DNA of 64,000 nucleotides, taken from Myxococcus sp. RHSTA-1-4. Its GTDB lineage: Bacteria > Myxococcota > Myxococcia > Myxococcales > Myxococcaceae. This document shows positions 11,213 to 33,373 of this stretch, in pieces. Within the stretch, counting starts at the first letter, position 1. Each line of letters opens with the position of its first letter. Both the position numbers and the translations under genes were made by a program. A model generated the notes under the pieces. The model had not been told where the DNA came from, did no database searches, and saw only the letters and a list, made by a program, of their open reading frames with translations. The stretch spans positions 124,001 to 188,000 of the forward strand of contig NZ_JAIQDG010000017.1 of assembly GCF_020037125.1 (NCBI RefSeq), given 5' to 3'.

Positions 11213-12615
11213 GTTCGAAGTCCTCCTCCAAGGCCCCCCAGGCCAAGGCCCCTCCGCCTTCCCCGGTGCCGACCCGTGGCGCGCTGGCGCTGCTGGTGCT
11301 GGGCCTCGCCGAGAGCGGGCTCGCCATCTTCCAGTGGATGCAGCTCGTCACCCTGCGCGGTGGCGGCGCCACCGTGTGCGGCGTGTCCGACACGGTGAAC
11401 TGTGAGACGGTGTGGAACTCGCCCTTCGCCAGCCGCGTCCATGAGCTGCTCGGCATCCCCGTGGCCGGACTGGGCCTCGTGTGGGGCCTGGTCGCGGTGG
11501 GCCTGTCCGCGCTGTACCTGGCGTGGGCGCGCTCGGGCCGGCCGGTGCGTCCGGCGGCCAACGGCCTGCGGCTGATGGCCGCCGCGGGCGTGGTGTCCGT
11601 GGCCGTCTTCGCCGCCGCGAGCGCGGGCGCGGGCGCGGTGTGCCCCACCTGTGTGGGCACCTACGTGCTGGTGCTGGCCTTCGCGGGCGTGGCCGGGCTC
11701 GGGCTGCCCGGGCCGGTGGTGCCGGCGGGCGGCGAGTGGGGCGCCACGCTGAAGTGGACGGTGGGAATGACGGCCGCCGCCTTCGTCGCGATGCTCCTGC
11801 CCGGGCGCGCCACGCCCTCGGCGTCCGCGCCCACGGTGGCCTCGCTGCTGCCCCCGGCGCCCGTGAGCTCCTCCGGCCAGGAGGCGCCGCCTCCGCCCGC
11901 GTCGCTGGAGGAGTTCCTGCGGAGCCTGAACCGGGAGCAGCAGCAGTTCATCTCGGACGGGCTGGCGCAGTACCGCCGGGGCACGCCGCAGCCGGCCTTC
12001 GCGACCGCGCGCAAGCTGTACGGGCCGGCGGACGCGCCGGTGAAGATTGTCGAGTGGACGGACAGCAAGTGCCCCCACTGCAAGGCGCTGGTGGAGGAGC
12101 TGGCGGTGCTGAAGAAGCGCGTGCCGGAGGGGAAGATGTCGCTGGAGGCCCGCCAGTTCCCGCTGGACGGCGCGTGCAACCCGGCGATTCCCCGGCGCGG
12201 CCCGGACGCGCCCAGCGTGCGGTGCGTGGCGGCCAAGGCCCAAATCTGCCTGGAGGGCGCGCAGGACTACTGGGAGCTGCGCGAGAAGCTCTTCGCCGCG
12301 CAGGCCATCCTGGACACGGAGCGGGTGCTGGAGATTGCCTCGTCCGGCTCGGTGTCGCGCATGCAACTCGACGCGTGCATGGCCAGCCCGGCGACGGCGG
12401 CCAAGCTGCAGGAGGACTCGGCGTACGCCCTGCGGCACCAGATCAGCGGGACGCCGCTGGTGGTGGTCAACGGCCGCCAGGCCCTGCCGTCCGCGCCGCT
12501 GCTCTACGCGCTGGTGATGGCGGACGGCAACCCGAGCGCCCCCGCCTTCGACATGCTGCCCCCGCCGCGTCCCATGCCCATGGGGCATGACGACCACGCC
12601 GGCCACAACCACTGA
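11209..12615 (+). CDS. VKOR-DsbA fusion: disulfide-bond-forming membrane protein
   Basis: The 468-residue protein joins a vitamin K epoxide reductase-like membrane domain to a thioredoxin-fold domain, a known arrangement in which VKOR reoxidises its own DsbA partner. Visible redox sites are Cys57/Cys65 (loop pair), CPTC at 145-148 (quinone-side pair) and CPHC at 288-291 in the DsbA part. About four or five membrane helices precede a Pro/Ser-rich linker (about 200-235). The cis-Pro loop reads GTPLVV. The C-terminus ends in a His-rich tail (MGHDDHAGHNH) that could bind metal. Confidence 0.92.
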   Translation: MSSKSSSKAPQAKAPPPSPVPTRGALALLVLGLAESGLAIFQWMQLVTLRGGGATVCGVSDTVNCETVWNSPFASRVHELLGIPVAGLGLVWGLVAVGLSALYLAWARSGRPVRPAANGLRLMAAAGVVSVAVFAAASAGAGAVCPTCVGTYVLVLAFAGVAGLGLPGPVVPAGGEWGATLKWTVGMTAAAFVAMLLPGRATPSASAPTVASLLPPAPVSSSGQEAPPPPASLEEFLRSLNREQQQFISDGLAQYRRGTPQPAFATARKLYGPADAPVKIVEWTDSKCPHCKALVEELAVLKKRVPEGKMSLEARQFPLDGACNPAIPRRGPDAPSVRCVAAKAQICLEGAQDYWELREKLFAAQAILDTERVLEIASSGSVSRMQLDACMASPATAAKLQEDSAYALRHQISGTPLVVVNGRQALPSAPLLYALVMADGNPSAPAFDMLPPPRPMPMGHDDHAGHNH

Positions 12616-17227: not shown

Positions 17228-17311
17228 GGCGGGGCCCGCGAGGGCCGCTCCCGGGTGGTCATGCCCGATGACCGCTTCCGCCGGTTTCCCCATGACCATT
17301 ATCCTCCGGGC

Positions 17312-18826
17312 ATGAAGCGAGCCCCCTCGGGAATCCTGCCCATCATCGCGGTGGACCGTCGCTCGCCGGTGCCGCTGTACCGGCAGGTCTACGAGGGCTA
17401 CCGCGAGGCCATCGTCGACCGCAGGCTGCGGGCGGGGCAGCGGCTCCCGTCCACGCGCAGTCTGGCCTCCGAGCTGGGCATCTCCCGCATCCCCATCCTG
17501 GGCGCGTTCGAGCAGCTCCTCGCCGAGGGCTACTTCGAGAGCCGCGTGGGCGCGGGAACGTTCGTGGCCCACTCGCTGCCCGACGAAGGGCCTCCGCCGG
17601 ATGCGCGTGAGATGGCTCGCGGCGCGGCGGCGCAGGTGCGTCCCGGCAAGCGCGTCGTCTCGCGGGCCTCGGAGCTGTTGAGCCCCACGGCGGCTCCCTG
17701 GCTCGGCGGCCATGGCGCCTTCCGCTTGAGCGCACCCGCGCTGGACCCGTTCCCCTTCCAGGTGTGGTCCTCCCTGATGGCCCGGCACTCGCGAAACCCC
17801 ACCCGGAGCCAGCTCGCCTACGGGGACCCCATGGGGTACCGGCCCTTCCGCGAGGCGCTCGCGGAGTACCTGCGGACGTCGCGAGCCGTCCGGTGCGAGC
17901 CGGAGCAGATCATGGTGGTCAGTGGCTCGCAGCAGGCCCTGGAGTTGTCGGCCCGCGTGCTGCTCGACCCGCGCAGCCCCGTGTGGATGGAGGAGCCGGG
18001 CTACGCCGGAGCGCGGGACGTGCTCACGATGGCGGGTGCCCGGCTGGTGCCGGTGCCGGTGGACGAGGAGGGGCTGGACGTGAGCGCCGGCATCGCCCGC
18101 TGCGCGAACGCCCGGGCCGCCTACGTGACGCCCTCGCATCAGTATCCGCTCGGGGGGACGCTGAGCGCGACACGCCGGCTCCAGCTCCTGGACTGGGCAC
18201 AGCGCAGCGGCGCGTGGATTCTCGAGGACGACTACGACAGCGAGTACCGCTACGAGAGCCTTCCCATCTCCGCGTTGCAGGGGCTGGATAGGGATGCGCG
18301 CGTCATCTACATCGGGACCTTCAGCAAGGTGCTCTTCCCCGCGCTGCGCGTGGGCTACCTGGTGCTCCCGGCGGACCTGGTTCCCCGCTTCGCCCGGGTG
18401 CGCGACGCGATGGACATCTTCCCGCCGACGCTCTTCCAGGCCGTGCTGACGGACTTCATCACCGAGGGCCACTTCGCGCGCCACCTGCGGAAGACGCGGC
18501 AGCTCTACCGCGAGCGGCGCACCGTGCTCGTGGATGCGCTCACGCGGGAGCTGGGCGGCACGGTGGAGGTGCTCGGCGCCCGGGCGGGCATGCACCTGGT
18601 GGCGGCGCTACCCAAGGGGTTTCAGGACCGGGCCATCTCCGAGCGCGCCGCGAAGGAGGGACTCTGGGCCATGCCGCTCTCCGCCTGCTACCTGGCAGGG
18701 GACTCCCGCCAGGGACTCGTCCTTGGCTACGGAGGCACGGACGCCAGGCGGATACCGGACGCCGTGCGGCGGCTGCGAAAGGTCATTCTCGCGGGCCGGG
18801 CTGGGAGCGGAGCACCCCGGCGGTGA
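17312..18826 (+). CDS. MocR-type regulator (GntR HTH fused to aminotransferase fold)
   Basis: The 504-residue protein has a GntR winged helix (about residues 12-80, with PLYRQVYEGYREAIVDRRLR and LPSTRSLASELGISR) joined to a class I aminotransferase-like domain. The PLP lysine is Lys339 in GTFSKVLFPALRVGY, and EDDYDSEYRY supplies the expected Asp/Tyr contacts. MocR proteins sense PLP-linked metabolites and usually control adjacent genes. It lies 54 bp upstream of, and in the same direction as, the ATP-grasp gene, so it may regulate the biosynthetic cluster that follows. The ATG at 17312 is preferred to an upstream in-frame one. Confidence 0.9.
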   Translation: MKRAPSGILPIIAVDRRSPVPLYRQVYEGYREAIVDRRLRAGQRLPSTRSLASELGISRIPILGAFEQLLAEGYFESRVGAGTFVAHSLPDEGPPPDAREMARGAAAQVRPGKRVVSRASELLSPTAAPWLGGHGAFRLSAPALDPFPFQVWSSLMARHSRNPTRSQLAYGDPMGYRPFREALAEYLRTSRAVRCEPEQIMVVSGSQQALELSARVLLDPRSPVWMEEPGYAGARDVLTMAGARLVPVPVDEEGLDVSAGIARCANARAAYVTPSHQYPLGGTLSATRRLQLLDWAQRSGAWILEDDYDSEYRYESLPISALQGLDRDARVIYIGTFSKVLFPALRVGYLVLPADLVPRFARVRDAMDIFPPTLFQAVLTDFITEGHFARHLRKTRQLYRERRTVLVDALTRELGGTVEVLGARAGMHLVAALPKGFQDRAISERAAKEGLWAMPLSACYLAGDSRQGLVLGYGGTDARRIPDAVRRLRKVILAGRAGSGAPRR

Positions 18827-18880
18827 CGCGGGCCGGGCGGCATGCGCGAGGGTGGGGGCGGTGTGGAATACTCGCCCGCC

Positions 18881-20242
18881 ATGCCAGGCAACGAGCTGAC
18901 CGAAGCCATCTCCTTCTACGACGGGTTGCTCCAGGGCGAGGTCTTGCGACGGACCCATGAGCTGCTCCTCCAGCGCACGCTCGCGGAGCGGGTGACCTAC
19001 AAGAGCCGCTCGCTGTATCACGTGCTTCGCCCGCGCTTCATCACTCCCCAGCAGCTGGTGGAACACCAGCGCGCCACCCTCGCGGTGAGGCGGGGAATCG
19101 AGGCGGTGTATCGGCACGCCTGCCGGGACGAGGCCTTCCGCCGCGAGCTGGGCGTCCAGGACTGGGAAGAGCTCCTGATGCGCGTGGACGGGGACAGCCG
19201 GATGCCGGCCATCGTCGGACGCCTGGACGGCTTCGTCGACCCGGACGGCGTCCTGCGCTTCATGGAGTACAACCCCGCCCCCGGCGGCTACCTCATCATG
19301 CACCTCCTCGGCGAGGCGTTCTCCGCCACGCCCGTTCTGGAGGCCTTCTCGCGCCGCTACGACGTCGTCCTGCCGCGCACCGCCCCCAACATCATCGACG
19401 CGCTGAAGGCCAACCACGCGCGCATGGGCCGTGATGGCATGCCGCAGCTCGCCCTCTTCGGCCCCGCCGGCCCGGATGACGTGGACGAGGAGCAGCTCCT
19501 CCAGGAGTACCTCCCCGCGCAGGGGGTGCACTTCCAGCACGTCACCTCCGAGGACGAGTGGACGTACCGGGACGGCCGGCTCTACGTGCGCGACTTCCGC
19601 GTGGACGTCGTCACCTTCATCTCCAGCGTCGGGTTTGGCGGGCTGATTGTCGGCTGCGGCCCGGACCACCCGGTGATGCGGGCGCTCGTCGACGGCGCGG
19701 CGTACTTCATGAACGGGATGTTCCAGCTCTGCGTGCTGAACAGCAAGGTGCTCTTCGCCGCGCTGAGCACGCCCACGAATGCGCACCTGTTCGCGCCGGA
19801 CGTCCGTGAGGCGCTGGCCCGCCACATCCCCTGGACCCGGGTCGTTCGCGAGAGCACGACGTCCTACGGCGGGAAGGAAGTGGACCTGCTCCCCTTCGTC
19901 TCGGCGAACCGCGAGCGCTTCGTCCTCAAGCCGGCCACCGGTTATGGCGGCACGGGCGTGGTGCTGGGCTGGGTGGCCGACGCGGAGACCTGGGACGCCA
20001 CCCTGAAGCAGGCCCTGACGGAGCCGTGGGTCATCCAGGAGCGCATCCACACGACGAAGGAGCCCTACCCCGTCCTGGACGGCACGGGCATCCGTTACGA
20101 AGAGCTCCACATGGACCTCAACCCGTACGTGTGGAACGACGAGCGCGCGGAGGGCTGCTTCGTGCGTGTCTCACCCACGCCGATGATGAACCTGGCCCAG
20201 GGCGGCTCGCTGGCGCCGCTGGCCGTCGTCCGCGAGCGCTGA
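18881..20242 (+). CDS. ATP-grasp-like ligase candidate
   Basis: This 453-residue protein has features of an ATP-grasp ligase, which activates a carboxylate as acyl phosphate for attack by an amine. The nucleotide loop reads FVLKPATGYGGTGVVLG with Lys350, followed by WVIQERI, a likely hinge strand, and a C-terminal EELHMDLNPYVW strand with acidic/Asn metal ligands. The N-terminal half resembles glutathionylspermidine-synthase-like or circularly permuted ATP-grasp proteins (FMEYNPAPGGY). No signal peptide is present. It precedes the two GNAT/C-Ala genes and the NRPS on the same strand, suggesting it ligates a building block or product. Exact family and substrate are not established. Confidence 0.65.
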   Translation: MPGNELTEAISFYDGLLQGEVLRRTHELLLQRTLAERVTYKSRSLYHVLRPRFITPQQLVEHQRATLAVRRGIEAVYRHACRDEAFRRELGVQDWEELLMRVDGDSRMPAIVGRLDGFVDPDGVLRFMEYNPAPGGYLIMHLLGEAFSATPVLEAFSRRYDVVLPRTAPNIIDALKANHARMGRDGMPQLALFGPAGPDDVDEEQLLQEYLPAQGVHFQHVTSEDEWTYRDGRLYVRDFRVDVVTFISSVGFGGLIVGCGPDHPVMRALVDGAAYFMNGMFQLCVLNSKVLFAALSTPTNAHLFAPDVREALARHIPWTRVVRESTTSYGGKEVDLLPFVSANRERFVLKPATGYGGTGVVLGWVADAETWDATLKQALTEPWVIQERIHTTKEPYPVLDGTGIRYEELHMDLNPYVWNDERAEGCFVRVSPTPMMNLAQGGSLAPLAVVRER

Positions 20243-20261
20243 AGCCGGCCGCCCCGCCGGA

Positions 20262-20294
20262 CGCCAGCACCCGGGAAGTGCTGGGTGTCTGGCG
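20262..20294 (+). terminator. Two overlapping hairpins after the ATP-grasp gene
   Basis: CCAGCAC (20264-20270) pairs with GTGCTGG (20278-20284). Alternatively CGCCAG (20262-20267) pairs with CTGGCG (20289-20294). The two folds exclude each other. This could be a simple terminator after the ATP-grasp gene or an attenuator-like switch before the GNAT genes. The 60 bp that follow are unusually AT-rich and may hold a separate promoter. Confidence 0.35.
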
Positions 20295-20393
20295 CCTCAT
20301 ACGGAGAGTGTTCTCCGCGTGCGCCTACCCCTCGGGGAGGGAGCCGGGGGGTGCGTTGATTTTGTCTCAGGTATCATTGGATTCTCAGACTTG

Positions 20394-22211
20394 ATGATTC
20401 TCTATGACGAGCACGCACTCTCTGCGATTCCGTGGCCTGAGACACCGGAGGGGCGGTTCGCTCGCGACTATCTGAGCCCGCTGCTGCGCGAGGGCAGCAC
20501 GGCCTTCGTGTCGGACCGGACGACGTACCGCGTCGTCGGCATGGACGGGTTGCTCATCCCCGTGGCCATCAACGACGCGGAGTACGACAACTCGCCGCTG
20601 TTCTCCAACTTCGCCCGCTACATCACCGTCCAGCTCGCGATGATGGACGCGAGGAACTGGGGCGGCGCGTCCGGGTGGGCCATCCGCCGCGTGCTCCGGA
20701 GCCTGGGGCTGATGCTCAAGGCCGCGCGCATCGACCGGTGCGTCTACGTGGACCACTGGCTGGTGCTGCGCAACCTGGGCGCCATGCTGACGCCGGAGCA
20801 GGTGCGGCGGCTCACGGGCTTCCTGGCCGAGCGCTTCCCCGGGCACGCCATCGTCTTTCCGTCGGTGAACCCGGCCACGCACTCGCCACTGCTCAACAAC
20901 CTCCGGGCGGAGGGCTACGGCTTCATCTACGCGTTCCACACGCGGATGCTCCTGCCCTTCAAGGCCGAGCTGAGCCGCCAGGTGCGGGAGAACCACCGCC
21001 GGGACGCGCGGCTCCTGGAGACGGCCGGCTACAAGCTGGTGGACGGCGCCGACCTGCCGGGCTGTGCGCCCCGGCTGCTGGAGCTGTACCGCGCGCTGAA
21101 CGAGGAGAAGTACTCGACGAACCTGCGAGTCACGGAGAAGTTCTTCGAGCACGCGCTGAGAGACCGCACGCTCCGCTTCCGCGTGGCGGTGAAGGATGGC
21201 CGCATCGACGGGTTCTACGCCTTCACGGTGAATGACGACGTCGTCTTCTCTCCCTGGTTCGGGTACGACCTGAGCCTCCCGCAGGAGCTCGGCCTGTACC
21301 GGGGGCTCGTGTATCAGCTCATGCAGGAGGCGATGGAGCACGGGCTGACCGTCGAGCTGGGCGCCGGCGCGGACGAGTTCAAGAGCCGGCGCGGCGACAA
21401 GCCGGTGCCCCGCTACAACGCCGTCCATACCGGCCACCTGCCCGCGTGGCGGCGCGCGGGGTGGCGGCTGCTCCAGCGCTTCGCCAACGAGGCCCTGCTG
21501 CCGTCGTCGAAGTCGTACCTGCGGAGCATCGACGGTGACGGGGTGGTGGGCTTCGACCGCATGCCCGAGGTCTTCACGCCGCCCACCGGCCTCAGCCCTC
21601 GCGAGGCGGCGGAGTCCCTGCGCCAGGAGCTGGCCTCGCTGGAGCGAGCGCTGGAGGAGGCCTCCGCCCTGGAGGGCGAGGCCCTGGCCCGGGCCCTCAC
21701 CCCGTTGTCGCAGAAGCTCCACAACTGGCCGCAGCCCCCGAAGCGGGTGGTGGAGCTGCGCGGGCGGCTGGAGGCGCTGGAGCAACGCCAGCGGCGCAAG
21801 GCCAGCGCTCCCGAGGAGAAGACCTCGCCCGTGGAGGAGGCCCAGCGCCTGCTCGCGGGCGCGGCGCGGCTGGGAGACACCTCCCTGGTGGCCCAGCACC
21901 TGGGGGACGCCTCGTCGCGGCACCTGAAGGACGTGGTGGACTGTCTGAAGCAGCACGCCGGCAGCGCCGCCGTGGTGCTGACCGCCATGCGTGGAGAGAA
22001 GGTGGTGCTCGTCACCGCGGCGACGCAGGCGCTGCTCCAGCGCGGCGTGGACGCCGGCCAGCTCATGGCGCATGTCGCGCCGGCCGTGGACGGGAAGGGC
22101 GGCGGCGCGCCGGAGGTGGCCTGGGGCGGGGGCTCGCGCCCCGACGGCATCCAGGCGGCGCTGGATGCGGCGCGGCGGTACCTCGATGAGCGCCTCGGTA
22201 GGACGGCCTGA
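20394..22211 (+). CDS. FemX-like GNAT protein fused to AlaRS C-Ala (DHHA1) domain, copy 1
   Basis: Residues 1-400 look like a double-GNAT, FemABX-type transferase: AYKLVDG region, LYRALNEEKY, then VAVKDGRIDGFYAF and LGLYRGLVYQL...VELGAGADEFKSRRG. Residues 405-500 are helical/coiled-coil. Residues about 510-605 match the alanyl-tRNA synthetase C-terminal DHHA1/C-Ala domain: VDCLKQHAGS, KVVLVTAAT, GVDAGQLMAHVAP and GKGGG at 567-571 followed by P. C-Ala binds the tRNA elbow, so the fusion suggests an aminoacyl-tRNA-dependent transferase. A close tandem paralogue follows. The shared MxLYDE N-terminus fixes the start. Confidence 0.75.
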   Translation: MILYDEHALSAIPWPETPEGRFARDYLSPLLREGSTAFVSDRTTYRVVGMDGLLIPVAINDAEYDNSPLFSNFARYITVQLAMMDARNWGGASGWAIRRVLRSLGLMLKAARIDRCVYVDHWLVLRNLGAMLTPEQVRRLTGFLAERFPGHAIVFPSVNPATHSPLLNNLRAEGYGFIYAFHTRMLLPFKAELSRQVRENHRRDARLLETAGYKLVDGADLPGCAPRLLELYRALNEEKYSTNLRVTEKFFEHALRDRTLRFRVAVKDGRIDGFYAFTVNDDVVFSPWFGYDLSLPQELGLYRGLVYQLMQEAMEHGLTVELGAGADEFKSRRGDKPVPRYNAVHTGHLPAWRRAGWRLLQRFANEALLPSSKSYLRSIDGDGVVGFDRMPEVFTPPTGLSPREAAESLRQELASLERALEEASALEGEALARALTPLSQKLHNWPQPPKRVVELRGRLEALEQRQRRKASAPEEKTSPVEEAQRLLAGAARLGDTSLVAQHLGDASSRHLKDVVDCLKQHAGSAAVVLTAMRGEKVVLVTAATQALLQRGVDAGQLMAHVAPAVDGKGGGAPEVAWGGGSRPDGIQAALDAARRYLDERLGRTA

Positions 22212-22286
22212 CGCGCGGGCCCGCGGACACCCTTGAACGGGCGCTCTCCGGGCGCCTCCACCTCCTCGACTGACTCCGCACGCACC

Positions 22287-24134
22287 ATGAACCTCTACGA
22301 CGAGCGCGACATCACCTCCGCCCCGTGGCCGGACACGGAGGCGGGGCGCAGGGCCCGGGACTTCCTCGTCCCCCTCTTCCAGCAGGGCGCCATGGCGTTC
22401 TTCTCGGAGCGGACCACCTTCCGGCTCGTCGAGCTGGACGGGCTGCTCCTGCCCCTCTCCATCAACGACGCGGAGTACGGCAACACGGGCGCCTTCTCCC
22501 TCTTCGCCCGCTACATCACCAACCAGCGCGCGGCCATCGCGGACAACGAGGGCTTCGGGCCCGTCGCCAGGCGGGTGGTCAGCCGCGTCCTTCAGGGGCT
22601 GGGTGGGGTGCTCAAGGCCTCGCGAATCAACAAGTGCATCTTCGTGGACAACTGGCCCACGCTGCGCAACACCACGCCGCTGCTGTCCGCCGACCAGGTG
22701 CGGCGCCTCACGCGCTTCCTCACGGAGCGCTTCCCCGGACATGCCATCGCCTTCCCGGCGCTGAGCCCCGCCACGCACGCGCCGCTGCTCGACACGCTGA
22801 CGGAGTGTGGCTACTCCGCCCTCTACACGCCCTACACCCGGATGGGGCTCGCCCACGGGGAGGAAATCCACCGCAAGGTGCGGGAGAACCGCCGCCGGGA
22901 TGCGCGGTTGCTGGAGACGTCCGGCTACCAGCTCGTGGATGCCCGGGACGTGCCCGGCTGCGCCCCCCGGCTGGCGGAGCTGTACCGGATGCTCAACCGG
23001 GAGAAGTACCGGACGAACCCCGACGTCCGCCCCGAGTACTTCGAGGCCGCCCTGCGCGGCGGGCCGATTCACCTCCGCGCGCTGGTGAAGGACGGGCGAA
23101 TCGACGTGTTCTACGGCATCTCCGTGGTGGGAGATGTCCTCTGGTCGCCCGTCGCCGGGTATGACCTCGGCGTTCCCCGCGAGGTCGGGCTGTACCGCAT
23201 CCTCAACAGCCTGCTGCTGAAGGAGGCCGTGGACCGGGGCGTGGCCATCGAGACGGGGGCCGGCGCGGACGAGTTCAAGAGCCTGCGCGGTGACAGGCCG
23301 CTTCCCCGCTACTGCATCGTCTACACCGACCACCTGCTCCCGCACCGCAAGGCGGGGTGGAGGTTGTTGCAGCGCTTCGCCAACGGCTCGCTGCTGCCGG
23401 CCGCCCGGGGCTACCTGCGCCGTATCGACGGGGACGCGGTGGTGGGCTTCGACGCCATCCCCCAGCGCTTCGTCCCTCCGTTCATGAGCCCCGGGGAATC
23501 GGTGGAGCTCCTGCGCAAGGACCTGGAGGCGATGGAGGCCGAGCTGGAGGAAATCCCCCGGCTGGAGCGGCGGGAGCGGGCCGGCCGCCTCGCCGCGCTC
23601 GCGAAGAAGCTGGAGGACTGGCCCCCTCCCCTTCCGCCGCGCTTGTCGGAGCTTCGCGAGAAGCTCGGGCACATGACGCAGCGGCTGAACGAGGAGAAGC
23701 CCGGCCGGAGCAGGGAGGCCACGAAGGCCCGGCGGGCGGAGCTGGCCCGCTCGCTCATCGCGAGCGCGATGAAGCTGGGGGACGCCACGCTCGTGGTCAG
23801 CCACCTGGGGGAGGCTCCCGTGGAGCAGCTTCGCGCCGTCGCCAGCGCGGTCCGCGAGGCCGCCGCGTCCTCCGCGGTGGTGCTCACGGGCACGCAGGGC
23901 GGCAAGGTGGTGATGTTCGCCGCGGCGGCGCCGGAGCTGTGTGCGCGCGGCGTGGACGCGGGGGCGCTCCTGGCCCAGGTGACACCGGTCGTGGAGGGAC
24001 GTGCCGAGGGCGGACCGGAGCTGGCCTGGGGCGAGGGAACGCGCCGCGAGGGCGTGGACGCGGCGCTTGAGGCGGCGCGGCAGTTCCTCCAGGCCCGTCT
24101 GGGCGGTGAACCCCGAGAGGTAGGTGGAAGATGA
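22287..24134 (+). CDS. FemX-like GNAT protein fused to C-Ala domain, copy 2
   Basis: This 615-residue paralogue of the preceding protein shares the start MNLYDERD, the GNAT blocks (LYRMLNREKYRTNPDV, LVKDGRIDVFYGI, IETGAGADEFKSLRG) and the helical linker. Its C-terminal C-Ala-like domain keeps KVVMFAAAA, ARGVDAGALLAQV and LAWGEGT, but the GKGGG loop has become GRAEG (571-575), so tRNA contacts may differ or be lost. It overlaps the NRPS start by four bases (ATGA), giving tight co-translation. The two copies may act on different acceptors or form a heterodimer; that is inference. Confidence 0.75.
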   Translation: MNLYDERDITSAPWPDTEAGRRARDFLVPLFQQGAMAFFSERTTFRLVELDGLLLPLSINDAEYGNTGAFSLFARYITNQRAAIADNEGFGPVARRVVSRVLQGLGGVLKASRINKCIFVDNWPTLRNTTPLLSADQVRRLTRFLTERFPGHAIAFPALSPATHAPLLDTLTECGYSALYTPYTRMGLAHGEEIHRKVRENRRRDARLLETSGYQLVDARDVPGCAPRLAELYRMLNREKYRTNPDVRPEYFEAALRGGPIHLRALVKDGRIDVFYGISVVGDVLWSPVAGYDLGVPREVGLYRILNSLLLKEAVDRGVAIETGAGADEFKSLRGDRPLPRYCIVYTDHLLPHRKAGWRLLQRFANGSLLPAARGYLRRIDGDAVVGFDAIPQRFVPPFMSPGESVELLRKDLEAMEAELEEIPRLERRERAGRLAALAKKLEDWPPPLPPRLSELREKLGHMTQRLNEEKPGRSREATKARRAELARSLIASAMKLGDATLVVSHLGEAPVEQLRAVASAVREAAASSAVVLTGTQGGKVVMFAAAAPELCARGVDAGALLAQVTPVVEGRAEGGPELAWGEGTRREGVDAALEAARQFLQARLGGEPREVGGR

Positions 24135-27100
24135 CGCTGACTCCCGATGAGAAGCGGGCCCGGCTCGCGCGGCTGCTGCGTGAGAAGGCCCGCAGGTCCC
24201 GGCGGGCGCCTCCCTCCTTCTCCCAGGAGCGGATGTGGTTCCTGGAGCAGTGGAACCCCGGCAGCGCCCTCTTCAACATGCCCGTGGTGGTGCGGCTGTC
24301 CGGTGAGCTCCACCTGGAGGCGCTGGAGCGCGGCCTCCAGCAGCTCGTGGACCGGCACGAGGCGCTGCGCACCACCCTCACCGTGGAGGAGGGGCTCCCC
24401 GTCCAGTGCATCTCCACCGGCATGGAAGTGCCTCTGGAGGTGGTGGAGCTCCCGGAGGCGCTGGCCTGGGAGCGCATCTCCACCGAGGCGCGGCGGCCGT
24501 TCGACCTGGAGCGGGGGCCCCTGCTGCGCACCGTGCTGCTCCGGCTCGCCCCGGACGCGCACCTGCTCCTGGTGAACACGCACCACATCGTCACCGACGC
24601 CTGGTCCCTGGGGGTGCTCGTGCGCGAGCTGGCCGCCGTGTATCAGGCCTTCGCCGAGGGGCAGCCCTCGCCGCTGGCGCCGCTGCCGCTCCAGTACGCG
24701 GACTACGCCGCGTGGCAGCGCGAATGGCTGCGGGGCCCGGTGCTGGAGGAGCAGCTCGCCTGGTGGCGCTCCCGGTTGGACCCCAAGGCCCGCCTGGAGC
24801 TGCCCGCCGACAAGCCGCGTCCCGCCGTGCTCGGCTCGCGCGGAGAGCGGCAGGTGCGGATGCTGTCCCCGGCGCTCACCGAGGCGCTCAAGGCCCTGGG
24901 CCAGCGCGAGGGGAAGACGCTCTTCGTCGTCCTGTTGGCCGCCTTCAAGGCGCTCCTGTACCGCTACACGGGGCAGACGGACCTGACGGTCGGCTCGCTC
25001 ATCGCGGGCCGCAACCGCGCCGACCTGGAAGGACTCATCGGGCTGTTCATCAACGCCCTGGCCCTGCGCACCCAGATGTCGGGGGACACCTCGTTCCGCG
25101 CGTTGCTGGAGGCCGTGCACGAGACGACGCTCCAGGCCTATGCGCGCCAGGACGTGCCTTTCGAGAAGCTGGTGGAGGCGCTCAAGGTGGAGCGCAGCTC
25201 CAGCCACCTGCCGCTGTTCCAGGTGATGCTCGTCCTGCAGAACTCGCCCCTGCCGCCGCTTCGAGCCCGCGGGCTGGTGATGGACGCGCTGCCCGTCGAC
25301 ACGAAGACGACGAAGCACGACCTCACGCTGTACGCCATCGAGCTGCCCCAGGGCTTGCGGCTCAGCGCGGAGTACAGCACGGACCTGTTCGAGGCCCCGA
25401 CGATGGCGCGCCTCCTGGGCCACCTGGAGACGCTGCTGGCCGGTGCCGTGGAGGACCCGAACCGGCGCCTCGCGGAGCTGCCGCTGTTGACCGGCCCGGA
25501 GCGCCACCAGCTCCTGCGCGAGTGGAGCGGCGAGCACTTCGACCTCCCGCGTGAGGCCTGCATCCACACCCTCATCGAGGCCCAGGTCCGGCGCACGCCC
25601 GACGCGGTGGCGCTTTCCTTCGAGGGCTCGCGCCTCACGTACGCGGAGCTGGACGCGCGCGCGAATCAGCTCGCGTGGCACCTGCGCTCGCTGGGCGTGG
25701 GCCCGGAGGTGCGCGTCGGCCTGTGTCTGGAACGCTCCCTGGAGATGGTGGTGGCCCTGCTGGCCACCCTCAAGGCCGGTGGCGCCTATGTGCCGCTGGA
25801 CCCGGCATACCCCTCGCAGCGCCTGACGTGGATGCTGGAGGACGCGCGGCCCGCGGTGCTGCTCGCACAGGAGCGGTTGCTGCCGCGCCTTCCTCCGCAC
25901 GAGGCCCGGGTGGTGCTCGTGGACTCCGGCTGGGACGTGGTGGCCCTCCAGCCGCGGCACGCTCCTCCTCCCACGGCCAGCTCCGGCGGCCTCGCGTACG
26001 TCATCTTCACCTCGGGCAGCACCGGCCGCCCCAAGGGGGCGATGAACGAGCATGGCCCGGTGGTCAACCGCCTGCTGTGGATGCAGCGGGAGTACGGGCT
26101 GACGCCAGCGGACACCGTGCTTCAGAAGACGCCGTTCAGCTTCGATGTATCCGTGTGGGAGTTCTTCTGGCCGCTGATGGTGGGGGCGCGGCTGGTGGTG
26201 GCGAAGCCGGGCGGGCACCAGGAGCCGGCGTACCTCGCGCGCCTCATCGCGGAGGAGGGCGTCACCACGCTGCACTTCGTGCCCTCCATGCTCCAGGTGT
26301 TCCTGGAGGAGCCGGGGCTGGAGCGCTGCGCGTCGCTGAAGCGCGTGGTGTGCAGCGGCGAGGCCCTGCCGCTGGACCTGGCCGAGCGCTGCCTCGAGCG
26401 GCTGCCCGGCGCGGGGCTGCACAACCTCTACGGCCCCACCGAGGCCGCGGTGGACGTCACCTATTACCCGTGCGTGCCGGGCGAGCCGCGCCGCTCGGTG
26501 CCCATTGGCCGCCCCGTGGCCAACACGCAGATTCGCCTGCTGGATGCGAACCTGCGCCCGGTGCCCATCGGCGTGTCGGGCGAGCTGTTCATCGGCGGCG
26601 TGCAGGTGGGGCGCGGCTACCTGGGCCGTCCGGAGCTGACGGCGGAGCGCTTCATTCCGGACCCCTTCATCGACACGCCGGGCGCGCGGCTGTACCGCAC
26701 CGGCGACGTGGCGCGCTGGCTGCCGGATGGCGCCATCGAGTACCTGGGCCGGGCCGACTTCCAGGTGAAGGTGCGCGGCCTGCGCATCGAGCTGGGTGAA
26801 ATCGAGGCCGTGCTGGAGCAGCACCCCTCCGTGCGGCAGGCGGTGGTGGTGGCGCGCGAGGACGGGGGCGGGGACAAGCGGCTGGTGGCCTACGTCGCGG
26901 GGCGGGGCGAGGCGGGCGCGGTGGACCCCGAGGCACTGCGGGCGCTGATGCAGGCGAAGCTGCCCGAGTACATGGTGCCCTCGGCCCTCGTGGTGCTGGA
27001 CGCGCTTCCGCTCAGCCCCAACGGCAAGGTGGACCGCAAGGCCCTGCCCGCGCCGGAATTGGAGCGCGCGCGCGAGGGACATGTGGCTCCGGCCACTCCC

Positions 27101-30100
27101 ACCGAGGTGGAGGTGGCCGCGCTCTTCGGCGAGCTGCTCGGCGTGGAGCGCGTGGGCGCGCGGGATGACCTCTTCAAGCTGGGCGGCAACTCGCTGATGG
27201 CCACGCGCGTCCTCGCCCGCCTGCGCGCGCGCTTCGGTGTGGAGCTGCCCCTTCGCGCCCTGTTCCAGCACTCCACCGTCCAGCAGGTCGCGAGGCTGGT
27301 GGATGAGGCCCGGGCCCGCGTGGCGCCCGCACCGGAGCGCATTCCCGCGCCGGAGCAGCGGCGCCGCCTGCCCGTCATCTCCCTGCGCGCCGATTCGTTG
27401 CCCCCGGGCCTGGAGACCCCGGCAGCGGCAGGCGAGGCGCCGCTCACGGACGAGGAGCGGCACCGCCTGCTGGTGGAGTGGAATGACACGGCCGCGGACT
27501 TCCCCCGTGAGACGTGCCTGCACCAGCTCGTGGAGGCCCAGGCCCGCGAGACTCCCGAGGCCGTTGCGGTGGTGGCGGGCTCCACGCGCCTCACCTACGC
27601 GGAGCTGGAGGCGCGCGCCAACCGGCTCGCCTGGCGCCTGCGTGAGCTGGGCGTGGGGCCCGAGGTGCGCGTCGGCCTGTGCGTGGAGCGCACGGCGGAC
27701 ATGGTGGTGGGGATGCTCGGCATCCTCAAGGCGGGTGGTGCCTACGTGCCGCTGGACCCCACGTACCCGCGGGAGCGCCTGGCCTTCCTGCTCGAGGACG
27801 CGCAGGGGCCCGCGCTCGTCGCCCACTCGCACCTGCTCGCGGCGCTGCCTCCGCACGCCGCCACGCCGGTGTGCCTGGACACGGACGCGGAGGCCCTGGC
27901 GCTTCAGCCCTCGACACAGCCTCCGGTCGCGGCGCTGCCGGAGAACATCTCCTACCTCATCTACACGTCGGGCAGCACGGGCCGCCCCAAGGGCGTGGCC
28001 ATTCCGCACCGCGCCGCCGTGGCGTTCCTCTCCTGGGCGCACGGCGTCTTCTCCGCGGAGGAGCTGGGCGGTGTGCTGGCCGGCACCTCGCTCAACTTCG
28101 ACCTCTCCGTGTTCGAGGTCTTCGCCCCGCTGAGCCGTGGCGGCAGCGTCATCGTCGCCCGCAATGCGCTGGCGCTGGCGGAGCTGCCCCACGCGTCGGA
28201 GGTGACCCTCGTCAACACCGTGCCCTCCGCCATGGCCCAGTTGCTGCGGCTGGGCGCGCTGCCCGCCTCGGTGCGCACCGTCAACCTCGCCGGAGAGCCG
28301 CTCCCGGCGCCCCTGGCGCGAGAGGTGTACGAGGTGCCCACCGTGCGGCGCCTCTACGACCTCTATGGCCCGTCGGAGGACACCACCTACTCCACCTTCT
28401 CGTTGGTGAAGCCCGGGGAGCCGCCCCTCATCGGCCGCCCCATCTCCAACACCCGCGCCTACGTGCTGGACGAGCACCTGCAACCGGTGCGCGTGGGCGC
28501 GCCCGGCGAGCTGTACCTGGCGGGCTCGGGGCTGGCGCGGGGCTACCTCCATCGCCCGGAGCTGACGGCGGAGCGCTTCCTCCCGGACCCCTTCGGTCCG
28601 CCGGGCTCGCGCATGTACAAGACGGGAGACCGGGTGCGCTACCGGCCGGACGGTGAGCTGGAGTACCTGGGCCGCAACGACTTCCAGGTGAAGGTGCGCG
28701 GCTTCCGCATCGAGCTGGGCGAGGTGGAGGCCCGGCTCCAGGCCCAGCCGGGCGTGCGCGAGGCCGTGGTGGTGGCGCGCGAGGACGGCCCTGGAGGTCA
28801 GCGCCTCGTCGCGTACGTGGCGGGCGAGGCGGGACAGACGCTCGAAATCAGCGCCCTGCGCGAGGGACTTCGCGCCACGCTGCCCGAGTACATGGTGCCC
28901 TCGGCCTTCGTGGTGCTGGAGGCCCTGCCGCGCAACTCGAATGGCAAGGTGGACCGCAAGGCGCTGCCCGTGCCCCTCAATGAGCGCACCAGCCTCCGGC
29001 CCTATGAGGCACCGCGCACGCCCACGGAGGAGTTGCTGGCGGGGCTGTGGCGCCAGGTGCTCGGCCTGGAGCGCGTGGGCGTGAAGGACCACTTCTTCGA
29101 GCTGGGCGGCCACTCGCTGCTGGCCACGCAGGTGGTGGCCCGGCTGCGCACGGCGCTGCGGACGGAAGTGCCCATGCAGGCCTTCTTCGAGGCGCCCACG
29201 CTGGAGGCGTTGGCCCGGCGGGTCGACGCCGCCCGCGGCGATGGCGAGGCCACGCCCGTGGTGCCCCCGCTGCTGCCGGTGCCGAGGACGACGGGCGCGC
29301 TGCCGGTGTCCTTCGCCCAGCAACGCCTGTGGCTGCTGGACCGGCTGGAGCCCGGAAGCACCGCGTACATCATCCTCGCGGCGCTGCGCCTCCAGGGGGC
29401 GCTGGACGTGCGCGCGCTGGTGCTCGCCTTCCAGGCGCTGCACGAGCGGCACGAGAGCCTGCGCACCGTCTTCGGCGAGGACGCGCAGGGCCCCACCCAG
29501 GTCATCCTCCCCGCCGGGCCGCCGGACATGGGACTGGTGGACCTGCGGGAGCTGCCCGAGCCGGAGCGCGAGGCCGAGGCGCGCGCGCTGGCGGCCGATG
29601 AGGCCCAGCGGCCCTTCAACCTGGAGAAGGGCCCGCTGGTGCGCGCCCTGCTGCTGCGGCTGAGCGAGCAGCACCACCTGCTGGTGGTGTCGATGCACCA
29701 CATCATCTCGGACGGTTGGTCCTCGGCGGTGCTCATCCGCGAGCTGTCCGCGCTCTACGAGGCCTTCTCACGGGGCGAGGAGCCCCGTCTGCCGCCGCTG
29801 CCCGCGCAGTACGCGGACTACGCGGTGTGGCAGCGCCAGTGGCTGAAGGGCGAGGTGGTGGAGTCCCAGCTCGACTGGTGGCGCCAGCAGCTCACCGGGG
29901 CGCCGTCCCTGCTGGAGCTGCCCACGGACCGGCCGCGCCCGGAGGTGCTCTCTCCGAGAGGCGGCCGCGTGCCGGTGCAGCTGGGCGAGCCTGTGTCCAC
30001 GGCGCTCAAGGCCCTGTGCCACCGCGCGGGCGTGACGCCCTTCATGGCCCTGCTGGCGGGCTTCGTGGCGCTGCTGTCCCACGAGTCGGGACAGCCCGAC

Positions 30101-31504
30101 GTGCTGGTGGGCTCGCCCGTCGCGGGCCGTGGCCTGCCGGAGCTGGAGGGGCTCATCGGCTTCTTCGTCAACACGCTGGCGCTGCGCACGCGGCTGCACG
30201 GCAACCCCAGCTTCCGCGAGCTGCTGGGCCGGGTCCGCGAGGTGACGCTCGGGGCCTATGCACACCAGGACGTGCCCTTCGAGCGCGTGGTGGAGGCCGT
30301 CCAGCCGGAGCGCGGCCCGGACCGCTCGCCGCTCTTCCAGGTCATGTTCGTGCTGCAGAACGCGCCGTGGGCACAACCCATGGGGCCGGGGCTGTCCATG
30401 CGGTTCGAGGACGTGGAGCGGCACTCGGCGAAGTTCGACCTGACGCTGGCGCTGTGGGAGACGGAGGAGGGGTTCTCCGGCTCGCTGGAGTACGCCAGTG
30501 ATTTGTTCGAGCGCACCACGGCGGCGCGGATGTCCGAGCGGCTGCGCGGCCTGCTGGCGTGGGCGGTGGCGCATCCGGAAGCGCCGCTGTCCCGGCTGGA
30601 CCTGGCGCCCGACGTGCGCGAGCTGCTGGTGCCGCTCCAGGCCGGGGGCTCGCGTCCGCCGTTCTTCTGCGTCCATGCGGTGGGCGGCACCGTGTCGGGC
30701 TACGCGGAGCTGGCCCGTCACCTCGGCTCGGAGCAGCCCTTCATCGGCATACAGGCCCGCGGGCTGGAGGGCGAGCAGCCCCCGCTGGAGTCCATCGAGG
30801 CCATGGCGGCGCTCTACGTGGAGGCCCTGCGCACCGCGCGGCCTCACGGGCCCTACCGCCTGGGAGGCTGGTCGCTGGGCGCGGTCATCGCCGTCGAGAT
30901 GGCGCGGCTCCTCCAGGAGGCGGGGGAGGTGGTGGAGCAGCTCATCCTCATCGAGCCCAGCCCCACGTCGTATGCGCAGGGCACCCGTGTCGAGGAGTCC
31001 GAGACGCTGGATGGGCTGTTCGCGCTGAACCTGGCGCGCACGCTGGGGCTGCCCGTGGAGCCCGAGGACGTCCAGCGGTTGGACGATGGCCCGGCGCTGC
31101 TGAAGCACCTGCTGGAGAGGGGCCGCCGCGCGGGTGTCTTTGGCCCCGAGGTGGGGCTGGCGCGGCTCCAGGCGCTCCAGCGCGTCTTCACGTCCTGTGC
31201 GCGCGCCCTCCATCAGCATGTGCTGCGTCCCCTCTCGCTTCCGGTCGTCCTGCTGCGAGGCACGGAGGCCGAGGTGGGGGAGGCCCACGTGCCCGACCGG
31301 GGCTGGGCGGCGCTGGCTTCCCAGGTGGAGGTGGTGGACGTGTCGGGCGACCACTACACCGTGCTGCAGGCGCCGCATGTGGAGACGCTGGCCAGCGCGC
31401 TGAGCCGTGTCCTGGAGGTCTACCCCGCGCGGAGTCCTTGCGGGGAGGGACCGCCGCTTCGGCCCGAGGTGAGCGGGCTGTCCACGAAGCGCACCTCGCG
31501 GTAG
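24131..31504 (+). CDS. Non-ribosomal peptide synthetase, C-A(Ser)-T-A(Ala)-T-C-TE
   Basis: Domains over 2457 residues: C1 (about 27-450; HHIVTDA at 151-157), A1 (about 480-980), carrier T1 (Ser1021 in LGGNSL), A2 (about 1105-1620) directly after T1 with no condensation domain between, T2 (Ser1662 in LGGHSL), C2 (about 1725-2160; HHIISDG at 1856-1862) and thioesterase (about 2175-2430). Reading the ten specificity positions by motif alignment gives DVWHVSLVDK for A1, close to the EntF serine code, and DLFNNALTYK for A2, a code I know as alanine. The thioesterase has GWSLG (Ser2248), His2408, and Glu2275 where Asp is usual. The ATG overlaps the preceding stop. Confidence 0.95.
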   Translation: MTLTPDEKRARLARLLREKARRSRRAPPSFSQERMWFLEQWNPGSALFNMPVVVRLSGELHLEALERGLQQLVDRHEALRTTLTVEEGLPVQCISTGMEVPLEVVELPEALAWERISTEARRPFDLERGPLLRTVLLRLAPDAHLLLVNTHHIVTDAWSLGVLVRELAAVYQAFAEGQPSPLAPLPLQYADYAAWQREWLRGPVLEEQLAWWRSRLDPKARLELPADKPRPAVLGSRGERQVRMLSPALTEALKALGQREGKTLFVVLLAAFKALLYRYTGQTDLTVGSLIAGRNRADLEGLIGLFINALALRTQMSGDTSFRALLEAVHETTLQAYARQDVPFEKLVEALKVERSSSHLPLFQVMLVLQNSPLPPLRARGLVMDALPVDTKTTKHDLTLYAIELPQGLRLSAEYSTDLFEAPTMARLLGHLETLLAGAVEDPNRRLAELPLLTGPERHQLLREWSGEHFDLPREACIHTLIEAQVRRTPDAVALSFEGSRLTYAELDARANQLAWHLRSLGVGPEVRVGLCLERSLEMVVALLATLKAGGAYVPLDPAYPSQRLTWMLEDARPAVLLAQERLLPRLPPHEARVVLVDSGWDVVALQPRHAPPPTASSGGLAYVIFTSGSTGRPKGAMNEHGPVVNRLLWMQREYGLTPADTVLQKTPFSFDVSVWEFFWPLMVGARLVVAKPGGHQEPAYLARLIAEEGVTTLHFVPSMLQVFLEEPGLERCASLKRVVCSGEALPLDLAERCLERLPGAGLHNLYGPTEAAVDVTYYPCVPGEPRRSVPIGRPVANTQIRLLDANLRPVPIGVSGELFIGGVQVGRGYLGRPELTAERFIPDPFIDTPGARLYRTGDVARWLPDGAIEYLGRADFQVKVRGLRIELGEIEAVLEQHPSVRQAVVVAREDGGGDKRLVAYVAGRGEAGAVDPEALRALMQAKLPEYMVPSALVVLDALPLSPNGKVDRKALPAPELERAREGHVAPATPTEVEVAALFGELLGVERVGARDDLFKLGGNSLMATRVLARLRARFGVELPLRALFQHSTVQQVARLVDEARARVAPAPERIPAPEQRRRLPVISLRADSLPPGLETPAAAGEAPLTDEERHRLLVEWNDTAADFPRETCLHQLVEAQARETPEAVAVVAGSTRLTYAELEARANRLAWRLRELGVGPEVRVGLCVERTADMVVGMLGILKAGGAYVPLDPTYPRERLAFLLEDAQGPALVAHSHLLAALPPHAATPVCLDTDAEALALQPSTQPPVAALPENISYLIYTSGSTGRPKGVAIPHRAAVAFLSWAHGVFSAEELGGVLAGTSLNFDLSVFEVFAPLSRGGSVIVARNALALAELPHASEVTLVNTVPSAMAQLLRLGALPASVRTVNLAGEPLPAPLAREVYEVPTVRRLYDLYGPSEDTTYSTFSLVKPGEPPLIGRPISNTRAYVLDEHLQPVRVGAPGELYLAGSGLARGYLHRPELTAERFLPDPFGPPGSRMYKTGDRVRYRPDGELEYLGRNDFQVKVRGFRIELGEVEARLQAQPGVREAVVVAREDGPGGQRLVAYVAGEAGQTLEISALREGLRATLPEYMVPSAFVVLEALPRNSNGKVDRKALPVPLNERTSLRPYEAPRTPTEELLAGLWRQVLGLERVGVKDHFFELGGHSLLATQVVARLRTALRTEVPMQAFFEAPTLEALARRVDAARGDGEATPVVPPLLPVPRTTGALPVSFAQQRLWLLDRLEPGSTAYIILAALRLQGALDVRALVLAFQALHERHESLRTVFGEDAQGPTQVILPAGPPDMGLVDLRELPEPEREAEARALAADEAQRPFNLEKGPLVRALLLRLSEQHHLLVVSMHHIISDGWSSAVLIRELSALYEAFSRGEEPRLPPLPAQYADYAVWQRQWLKGEVVESQLDWWRQQLTGAPSLLELPTDRPRPEVLSPRGGRVPVQLGEPVSTALKALCHRAGVTPFMALLAGFVALLSHESGQPDVLVGSPVAGRGLPELEGLIGFFVNTLALRTRLHGNPSFRELLGRVREVTLGAYAHQDVPFERVVEAVQPERGPDRSPLFQVMFVLQNAPWAQPMGPGLSMRFEDVERHSAKFDLTLALWETEEGFSGSLEYASDLFERTTAARMSERLRGLLAWAVAHPEAPLSRLDLAPDVRELLVPLQAGGSRPPFFCVHAVGGTVSGYAELARHLGSEQPFIGIQARGLEGEQPPLESIEAMAALYVEALRTARPHGPYRLGGWSLGAVIAVEMARLLQEAGEVVEQLILIEPSPTSYAQGTRVEESETLDGLFALNLARTLGLPVEPEDVQRLDDGPALLKHLLERGRRAGVFGPEVGLARLQALQRVFTSCARALHQHVLRPLSLPVVLLRGTEAEVGEAHVPDRGWAALASQVEVVDVSGDHYTVLQAPHVETLASALSRVLEVYPARSPCGEGPPLRPEVSGLSTKRTSR
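31476..31504 (+). repeat. 29-bp direct repeat, left copy
   Basis: This copy forms the last 29 bases of the NRPS gene and matches 34724-34752 at 28 of 29 positions (C here, A there at position 15). On the minus strand both copies encode YREVxFVDS. The pair brackets 3.2 kb containing the lower-GC HipA/DUF3037 genes. Confidence 0.75.
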
Positions 31505-31630
31505 TGGGGGAGGCGCCGCTTGGCGAGGTGCGAACTCAACTCGCAGCTGGCCTCCATGGGGTTGGGCTCCGCGGAAAGCTCGCGCAGTACGTGTCAGCTC
31601 GGATAACGTCCCTACCTCTTGGGGTGGGGG
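31505..31630. other. Intergenic stretch with minus-strand coding remnant
   Basis: Together with the NRPS 3' end, the minus strand is open from 31593 to a TAG at 31420 and has good codon usage: an ATG at 31557 starts MEASCELSSHLAKRRLPHYR, continuing as EVRFVDSPLTSGRSGG. It looks like the tail of a lost gene. I do not recognise the family. Confidence 0.35.
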
Positions 31631-32396
31631 ATGCGCGTGCCGGATGACACGTGGCTCGGAGGACTACTGGGACCATCCCTGGAGGTGGTCAGCGGTGGCA
31701 CGAGCGCTGGTCCCGTCGATGTTCCACATACGAGTCAAGCCGACTTCTTTGTGGACGGAGTGGGCCGACGATGGGTGCGCAAGAGCCTCGACCAGATTTG
31801 GCTGGCAGGAGATGCTCGCTGAGCTCGTCGGCTGGTTCTTGGGGCGAGACCTTGGTGCACCTGTACCTGATGCCGCCATTCTGTTCCCGGGGCGCGCAGA
31901 CGCAGCGTGGCTGAGTGCCTACATCCCCCATCCGATTCACTGGGAGGCACACCACGCCCACTTCGTGACCAACCTGGACGCCTTTGGCGCGATGCTCGCG
32001 CTCGATGCGATCATCCACAACCACGACCGGCACAAGATGAACATCTTGCTGACGCCAGGGGCTGAAGAGCCAGAGCTCGACGCGTGGGCGATCGACACAG
32101 GGGCGGCGTTGGTCGGATTCCCTGCAGACTTCGCAGCAGCAGATCTGGCTGTGCCGGAAAAGCCGAATATTGCCCGGGGGTTACCTGTGCGCTTGATGGA
32201 ACCAGGCGCCCGCCGGGCTGCCAGGCGGGCAGTCGAGCTGGTGGAGTCTCCTGCCCTTCAGCATCAGGTAGCCGGTGCCTGCAGGCTTGTAGGTGAGCAA
32301 GAAAGCAACATACTGTTCTCGGCCCTTTCGAAGAGGATGAAGCAGGCGACCAGGTTGGTTGAACGCTACATCGAGGTCGTGGGAGCAATCTCGTGA
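31631..32396 (+). pseudogene. HipA-like kinase (HipA_2 type), frameshifted
   Basis: An ATG at 31631 after a GGGGTGGGGG purine run opens MRVPDDTWLGGLLG and on to RRWVRKSLDQI, then stops at 31818-31820. The conserved body is in another frame: GWQEMLAELVGWFLG, the kinase loop HNHDRHKMN and AIDTGAALVG (metal-binding Asp). Removing one T from the TTT near 31797 joins the halves exactly. HipA-like kinases phosphorylate targets such as aminoacyl-tRNA synthetases and act as toxins or stress switches. GC content is clearly below the surroundings, implying transfer. Either the gene is broken, the frameshift is programmed, or it is a sequencing error. The downstream partner overlaps its stop. Confidence 0.65.
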
Positions 32397-33217
32397 GCGC
32401 CAAGTTCCGTCTCGTCCAATACGTGCCGGATCCCTTCGTTGGGACGAAGATCACTATTGGCGCGCTCGTCGAGCACGATGGGCAGGTCGAACTTGCTCGG
32501 GCTCCTTGGGTTCCCGGCCCTGGCTGCATCGGTGGGCGCAAAGCATGGTCCACCATGCAGCTCATCCTCGACTCTCTCTCCACGCCAGCTCGGTTCGATC
32601 TCCCATCTGGAGAGCTAAGTGCCCTCGCCCAACTGGGGGAAGAGCGCCTCGTACCAGCAGGTGTTGGCAGCGCGCGGGAATGGCTTGAGGCCAAGCTTCT
32701 GCCGCAGAAGCCGCTGCGTGAGCAGGATCAAAAGGAGACTCCGCCATACCGACCCCATCGGGATACGGTGGGCTACCGATTCTTCGAGCAGTGGAGCGTC
32801 GCAGACTTCGTGAAGAGGAAGTACGCGCCCAGTTCCCTGCCTCGAACGCACCCCAAGGCTGCGGCAAGTGTCTCGCACTACGTTCCTGGAAAGGACGAGT
32901 TGCTGCTGATGGAGCCGGTGGTTGGTACGCGTCCGAAGTTTGAGGATGACCTTCAGGCCATCAGCCAAGAGTTCTTGGCGTTCCGCGAACTCTTCCGTCA
33001 GATGAGCGGTCCTCATCAAACCCCTGTGTTCATTGCGTACGTGCTCACGGGGGGATACTCGGCGGCGATGGGAGAGGCGAGCAGGGTGCTCTCGCGAGCT
33101 GCCGACCAGGTCGTCAATGTCGATGACCCAGCTCAGCGCACACTATTTCTTCAGCGCATTGTTGCTGTGGGCAGCTCTGGTGGGAACCAAGGCTCGTTGC
33201 CATTGCCGCGGAACTGA
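32393..33217 (+). CDS. DUF3037-like partner of the HipA-like kinase
   Basis: The 274-residue product starts at a GTG overlapping the HipA-like stop (GTGA). Its N-terminus, KFRLVQYVPDPFVGTKITIG, resembles DUF3037 proteins, which often follow HipA_2-type kinases in two-gene units. The rest is poorly recognisable, with YRPHRDTVGYRFFEQW, LLMEPVVGTRP and a helical C-terminus. Codon usage and GC content are those of the upstream gene and unlike the flanking DNA, so both were probably gained together. The role (antitoxin or co-factor) is unknown. Confidence 0.55.
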   Translation: MSAKFRLVQYVPDPFVGTKITIGALVEHDGQVELARAPWVPGPGCIGGRKAWSTMQLILDSLSTPARFDLPSGELSALAQLGEERLVPAGVGSAREWLEAKLLPQKPLREQDQKETPPYRPHRDTVGYRFFEQWSVADFVKRKYAPSSLPRTHPKAAASVSHYVPGKDELLLMEPVVGTRPKFEDDLQAISQEFLAFRELFRQMSGPHQTPVFIAYVLTGGYSAAMGEASRVLSRAADQVVNVDDPAQRTLFLQRIVAVGSSGGNQGSLPLPRN

Positions 33218-33373
33218 TTCCGTGGTTGGGCCGCGAGCACCTTGCGTGACTGTCGGGCGCGTTAAGTCTCATCTCACGGTTCGTGACGGAGTTCGCAACC
33301 GGGGCAGCATCGCCGCTTGGCGCATGATGACTCGGAAATACGACGTCTTTGGCGAACGTCCTGGGGAATGCTC

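Follow-up and report, generated by a model that had tools for sequence, protein, structure and literature searches.

Within the window, a stretch of 64,000 nucleotides from the 11.2-Mb genome of Myxococcus sp. RHSTA-1-4, the genes for an ATP-grasp-like ligase, two paralogous GNAT/C-Ala proteins (GN1 and GN2) and an NRPS form a cluster at 18881–31504 on the + strand, which, judged from its sequence, probably serves in Myxococcaceae to make a very short peptide based on Ser and Ala. By its predicted components and by analogy with characterized systems, the whole resembles an aminoacyl-tRNA-dependent natural-product pathway. The best explanation, to which we assign a somewhat better than even chance, is a system like that of PacB, in which GN1 would add Ala from Ala-tRNA to a Ser/Ala chain that is bound to, or derived from, the NRPS. 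In the literature searched, which left most subscription journals outside its coverage, there was no paper on GNAT-C-Ala fusions; neither the FemX-C-Ala fusion nor its pairing with a C-A-T-A-T-C-TE NRPS was found, and the parts are known.

Five consecutive genes on the + strand span 17255–31504: a MocR/PdxR-like regulator (17255–18826), the ATP-grasp-like ligase of the circularly permuted type 2-like kind (18881–20242), GN1 (20394–22211), GN2 (22287–24134) and the NRPS (24131–31504; 2457 aa). The gaps between them are 54, 151, 75 and −4 bases, the NRPS start overlapping the GN2 stop as ATGA. This content, the common strand and the overlapping stop and start of the last two genes are as given in the preliminary description of the locus. 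The open reading frame of GN1 begins at a GTG codon at 20319, and alignment of homologues moved the start to 20394; this position and 22287 for GN2 were adopted because all homologues begin with M-x-LYD. For the ATP-grasp gene the earliest possible start is 18842, and comparison with homologues places it probably at 18881. The coding signal was strong in all members of the cluster. Scans of the locus for promoters and terminators yielded nothing above chance. A Pfam search of the window cluster found no oxidase, MbtH or transporter, as had been noted before; an MFS exporter adjoins the cluster in three relatives (G044, G055 and G056).

The regulator had been counted as part of a five-gene system, an assignment that we reject. 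The protein has GntR and class I aminotransferase domains (Pfam) and is PdxR-like, with a score of 442 bits against a cut-off of 320. In three genomes of the same genus (G109, G114 and G120), the genes for DUF2270, MocR and a TPR protein are direct neighbours, uninterrupted by the cluster. In three other genomes of the genus MocR does not lie beside DUF2270 and TPR, and no MocR orthologue was present in those loci of other genera that were examined and that hold GN1, GN2 and the NRPS together. By sequence comparison, MocR is a resident of the locus, next to the site of insertion, and it may still regulate the cluster in the source strain. On the other side, the NRPS gene is followed by an insert of low GC content (31505–33316, + strand; 62% versus 72%) with two overlapping open reading frames at 31644–32396 (250 aa) and 32393–33217 (274 aa), neither of which has a Pfam family. 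The insert is missing between the NRPS and TPR genes of the sister genome G098 and is not part of the cluster. Its first reading frame weakly matches the PADLOC candidate PDC-M03A (E 6e-5). Elsewhere in the window, a gene pair on the − strand (41421–43147) strongly matches both halves of another PADLOC entry, the candidate defence system PDC-M20 (PDC-M20A, E 6e-94; PDC-M20B, E 1e-125), the second gene being a T6SS immunity protein, TsiV, by Pfam; at 11209–12615 a VKOR domain is fused to a DsbA/thioredoxin-like domain, with a gene for a SUI1-family protein following it.

The architecture of GN1 and GN2 was assessed with Pfam, profile searches, homologue alignment and a predicted structure. GN1 and GN2 are 53% identical. 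By Pfam, both proteins have DHHA1, which in GN2 scored just below the cut-off (25.5 versus 25.9 bits), and GN1 has a GNAT domain. When a profile of 34 relatives was compared with known structures, the only significant matches were to AlaRS C-Ala (E 4e-9 and about 5e-8), and these extended across the helical and globular subdomains; human C-Ala (5t5s) was matched over 200 residues (hmmsearch, E 4.6e-8). The model of GN1 was predicted from five sequences, taken only from the window and the loci L032 and L033, and is of moderate confidence (mean pLDDT 64). It comprises a FemX-like double GNAT part (residues 1–363), in which two GNAT-like domains are predicted to form one cleft, and C-Ala (about 404–603). 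Residues 2–363 of the model aligned with FemX over 286 residues (Z 14.8, rmsd 4.7), and the top matches of this part were FemX, MprF and the streptothricin aminoacyl-tRNA peptide synthases, with Z about 14; residues 404–603 aligned with C-Ala (Z 14.4, rmsd 6.7). Sequence profile and model together support the view that GN1 and GN2 combine the fold of known aminoacyl-tRNA transferases with the tRNA-binding domain of AlaRS; the earlier description of two GNAT/C-Ala proteins holds, with a FemX-like part and a complete C-Ala in each. A search of the host genome with GN1 matched only GN1, GN2 and the housekeeping AlaRS; tRNA charging would therefore have to come from AlaRS.

The motifs of the two domains separate the paralogues. 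An FK[ST]-x-RG motif is kept in both, its F329-K330 pair being invariant in 34 of 34 aligned rows. The catalytic lysine is Lys305 in FemX and Lys329, preceded by Phe328, in DhpH-C (PMC12945691), and from the likeness of the patterns the Phe-Lys of GN1 and GN2 would occupy the position of FemX Lys305 and DhpH-C Phe328-Lys329; this motif may be common to acyl-CoA-using GNATs as well. The host AlaRS carries GGKGGGKPDMAQAGG, that is, the GGKGGGK motif, the first lysine of which, in C. elegans C-Ala, contacts G18 of the tRNA and on its loss weakens binding 11-fold (PMC10485164). The corresponding GKGGG is intact in GN1, and in the GN1 copies at other loci, in every row readable there, but degenerate in every readable row of GN2, which retains the Phe-Lys motif. 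The prediction is thus that GN1 holds the tRNA elbow and that GN2 does not do so by this means. The two proteins had been described together as GNAT/C-Ala proteins; they share an architecture but are not equivalent, since GN2 has lost the motif that contacts tRNA in every readable C-Ala. In a tree of 38 proteins GN2 formed one supported clade and the orphan GN1 copies a single clade nested within GN1, which places the GN1/GN2 duplication, by sequence, before the split of four genera. One GN2 gene (G065; L040, 10830–12266) stops in frame ahead of C-Ala, either by true truncation or by an error of the draft assembly.

The catalytic part could also be read as that of an acyl-CoA-dependent N-acyltransferase capping the peptide, with C-Ala serving dimerisation or some other use. 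In Pfam it matches a general acetyltransferase family best, the fold matches of GN1 include tandem GNATs that use acetyl-CoA, and the missing tRNA motif in GN2 would fit as well. We nevertheless think this improbable, since the top fold matches are users of aminoacyl-tRNA and the elbow motif of GN1 is kept wherever it is readable.

The NRPS has the domain order C-A-T-A-T-C-TE, with the active-site motifs of the A, T, C and TE domains all intact. The same order, with intact HHxxxD, LGGxS and GxSxG, was present in every orthologue covering these parts. The A1 code, DVWHVSLVDK, was identical in 13 of 13 orthologues, and the A2 code, DLFNNALTYK, in every orthologue covering A2. We take the A2 code to be one for Ala; it was not found in the literature searched. 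From published Ser codes the A1 code differs by one residue (PMC12283262). By these codes T1 would receive Ser and T2 probably Ala, in keeping with the Ser- and Ala-containing product proposed earlier. The NRPS departs from the canonical rule that a C domain precedes every extension A domain: between T1 and A2 there is just a remnant of a C-A linker, EERHRLLVEWNDTA, and no C domain, from which we infer that a C domain was lost and that the loss became fixed. Nor is there a T domain between the last C domain and TE in any orthologue covering that part. Among solved structures the teixobactin C domains are nearest to both C domains, and no C-domain subtype was assigned from this. A corallorazine-like NRPS was considered and rejected. 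The corallorazine NRPS (crz, Corallococcus) is likewise bimodular and myxobacterial and begins with C-A(Ser)-T; it is, however, organized as C-A-T-C-A-nMT plus T-TD and accompanied by acyl-chain genes (PMC11342130), whereas the present NRPS differs in domain order, ends in TE rather than TD, and has neither nMT nor reductive release nor acyl-chain genes.

Several readings turn on this unusual domain order. The PacB-like system that we favour would have the C domain after T2 join the residues on T1 and T2, because no C domain lies between the two. A variant in which tRNA feeds a replacement for the lost C domain is rather unlikely in our estimation: the missing Ser-Ala bond, or an inserted Ala, would be made in trans by FemX enzymes that bear C-Ala and recognise tRNA(Ala) through its elbow, the GN1/GN2 pair would have different tRNA partners, and the ATP-grasp enzyme would finish the peptide. 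The junction of C and TE with no intervening T domain, seen in every orthologue covering it, might instead mean that the terminal C domain offloads the chain by joining it to a free amine, for example a product of the ATP-grasp or GN enzymes, the GNATs then making the acceptor and not the donor; with such a release there is no explanation for the T1-T2 bond unless T1 is passed over, and TE would not be needed, and we give it little credence. Finally, the absent C domain before A2, the patchy distribution of the cluster, the genome with GN1 only (G095) and the shortened GN2 of G065 could be taken as signs that the NRPS is a remnant, decaying or no longer functional, and that the genes are simply passed on side by side. 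Against this stand a domain order and catalytic motifs that are the same in all covering orthologues from four genera and the strong coding signal of all members, and we hold it to be highly improbable.

The ATP-grasp assignment of the protein encoded in the window was below threshold in Pfam (CP_ATPgrasp_2, 22.3 bits versus a cut-off of 32), and a distant homologue in G146 passed the same cut-off with 35 bits. Nine orthologues were aligned. A profile search of the PDB gave nothing meaningful, and an AlphaFold prediction from two sequences (pLDDT 37) was set aside. One genome (G047; L093, 9085–14437) has two divergent copies flanking an 844-aa PEARL-like protein with a lantibiotic-dehydratase-N domain, a context that hints that the family works with tRNA-dependent ligases; by Pfam, the lantibiotic dehydratase domain that marks PEARL systems is absent from all five genes of the window locus.

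The distribution was determined in 145 genomes of the order. Of these, 17 encode a GN protein with C-Ala, and 13, belonging to four genera, have the triad of GN1, GN2 and NRPS; GN2 and the NRPS orthologue occurred nowhere else in the sample. In G060 the triad is spread over two contigs, and the NRPS runs off its contig in G060, G062 and G065. Full-length NRPS matches (at least 2114 bits) were confined to the triad genomes, the next-best match (1380 bits) covering only an A-T-C stretch common to other NRPSs. An ATP-grasp orthologue was found in 11 of the 13 triad genomes, adjacent in nine and elsewhere in the genome in G055 and G056, as against two of the other 132, namely the divergent pair of G047 and a partial copy in G111 (Fisher p 6e-13, uncorrected for relatedness). 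Pairwise distances of GN1, GN2 and NRPS were correlated (r 0.92–0.94). The orthologues have mean identities of 61–76% with their catalytic motifs kept, which is far beyond chance. The preliminary description had made its proposal depend in part on the genes being conserved together in relatives; the GNAT pair, the NRPS and, for the most part, the ATP-grasp gene are. A gene for a SnoaL-like/DUF4440 protein is adjacent in eight Corallococcus-type loci. The search of the phylum returned no further genomes and no C-Ala-bearing relatives outside Myxococcaceae; plasmid matches covered the GNAT part alone. A scan of genome contigs with a single protein query gave two loci, other phyla being searched shallowly.

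Relatives of GN1 without C-Ala have neighbourhoods of their own. Those on Paenibacillus and Rhizobium plasmids (L099, 6571–15279; L102, 4853–12169) share a set of genes for KAS III-like, NAD(P) oxidoreductase, MBL-fold, CoF/F390-synthetase-like, GNAT and ATP-grasp proteins; whether this ATP-grasp and GNAT are the same pair as in the window was considered and rejected, its ATP-grasp sequence being unrelated. A Corallococcus-type set (L055, 6306–15452; the same in L056–L061) comprises a FeeM-like GNAT, haem-oxygenase-like, DUF3419, Asp/Asn-hydroxylase-like, FMN-binding and Transferase-family proteins and looks like another uncharacterised biosynthetic cluster.

GN1 also occurs by itself. In G095 it lies alone, flanked by DUF2270 and MocR. 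A second, TlpA-linked place for it exists in seven Corallococcus-type genomes, and four of these have the triad as well. These seven orphan copies (L043–L049), with intact motifs, are located just downstream of genes for a TlpA/AhpC-like protein and a 338-aa protein without a Pfam family, and about 3 kb from a large unrelated NRPS. GN1 can thus serve without GN2 and the NRPS, or has a second acceptor, and may have another substrate. Its solitary occurrence in G095 and at the seven second places, and the triad of G070, which has no ATP-grasp orthologue, stand against the best explanation. A rival possibility is that GN1 and GN2 are tRNA-dependent modifiers of peptidoglycan or a membrane lipid, which would shield the producing cell against the product of the NRPS instead of building that product: the nearest folds, FemX and MprF, modify a wall precursor and a lipid, and eight GN1 loci are without the cluster NRPS. 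Yet GN2 overlaps the NRPS start and was never found apart from the NRPS, and the cluster unit holds no other wall or lipid gene, so that we find this role doubtful.

Comparison with known systems supplies the analogies for the PacB-like reading. PacB of pacidamycin biosynthesis in Streptomyces takes L-Ala from aminoacyl-tRNA and attaches it N-terminally to the chain bound to PacH (PMC4052509). Like GN1 and GN2 it has a FemX-like GNAT fold and is encoded with an NRPS (PMC4052509, PMC12945691); unlike them, it is a single enzyme rather than two paralogues, no AlaRS C-Ala is described for it in these sources, and NRPS and product differ. The enzymes DhpH-C, DhpK, VlmA and Orf11/Sbb17/Sba18 of dehydrophos, valanimycin and streptothricin biosynthesis are double-GNAT proteins dependent on aminoacyl-tRNA, as GN1 and GN2 are predicted to be, and Sba18/Sbb17 aligned with the GN1 model at Z about 14. 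The enzymes of this group are described as having two GNAT domains and a tRNA-binding helix but no elbow-binding C-Ala tail (PMC12945691). AlaRS C-Ala shares with GN1 the helical and globular subdomains and the GG motif, whereas in GN1 and GN2 it is fused to a GNAT transferase and there is no aminoacylation or editing domain. In AcmF of ascamycin biosynthesis, AlaRS-derived parts also serve to alanylate a natural product (PMC12945691); AcmF, however, is an AlaRS-like class II enzyme, and GN1 and GN2 carry the C-Ala part only.

In the PacB-like system, the housekeeping AlaRS would charge tRNA(Ala), and GN1 would take the resulting Ala-tRNA(Ala), gripping the tRNA elbow by C-Ala with the charged end in the GNAT cleft. 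Ala would then be transferred to the free amine of the Ser/Ala chain, either NRPS-bound or released, much as PacB acts on the chain bound to PacH. The C domain after T2 would probably have joined the two residues, with TE then releasing the product. GN2 may be a specialised second transferase, using another tRNA or acting as a partner subunit, the ATP-grasp enzyme would add or cap one more residue, and in some relatives the MFS pump could export the product.

FemX-type enzymes are known from natural-product pathways, and the choice of tRNA by each of them is largely open. Here the transferase itself carries C-Ala, whole in one paralogue and degenerate in the other, so that the choice of tRNA can be put directly to the test and could perhaps be transplanted. 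The invariable C-A-T-A-T-C-TE order beside predicted tRNA-dependent ligases also raises the question of how an NRPS functions when one of its C domains is displaced, and the carriers of the cluster are strains of a culturable family.
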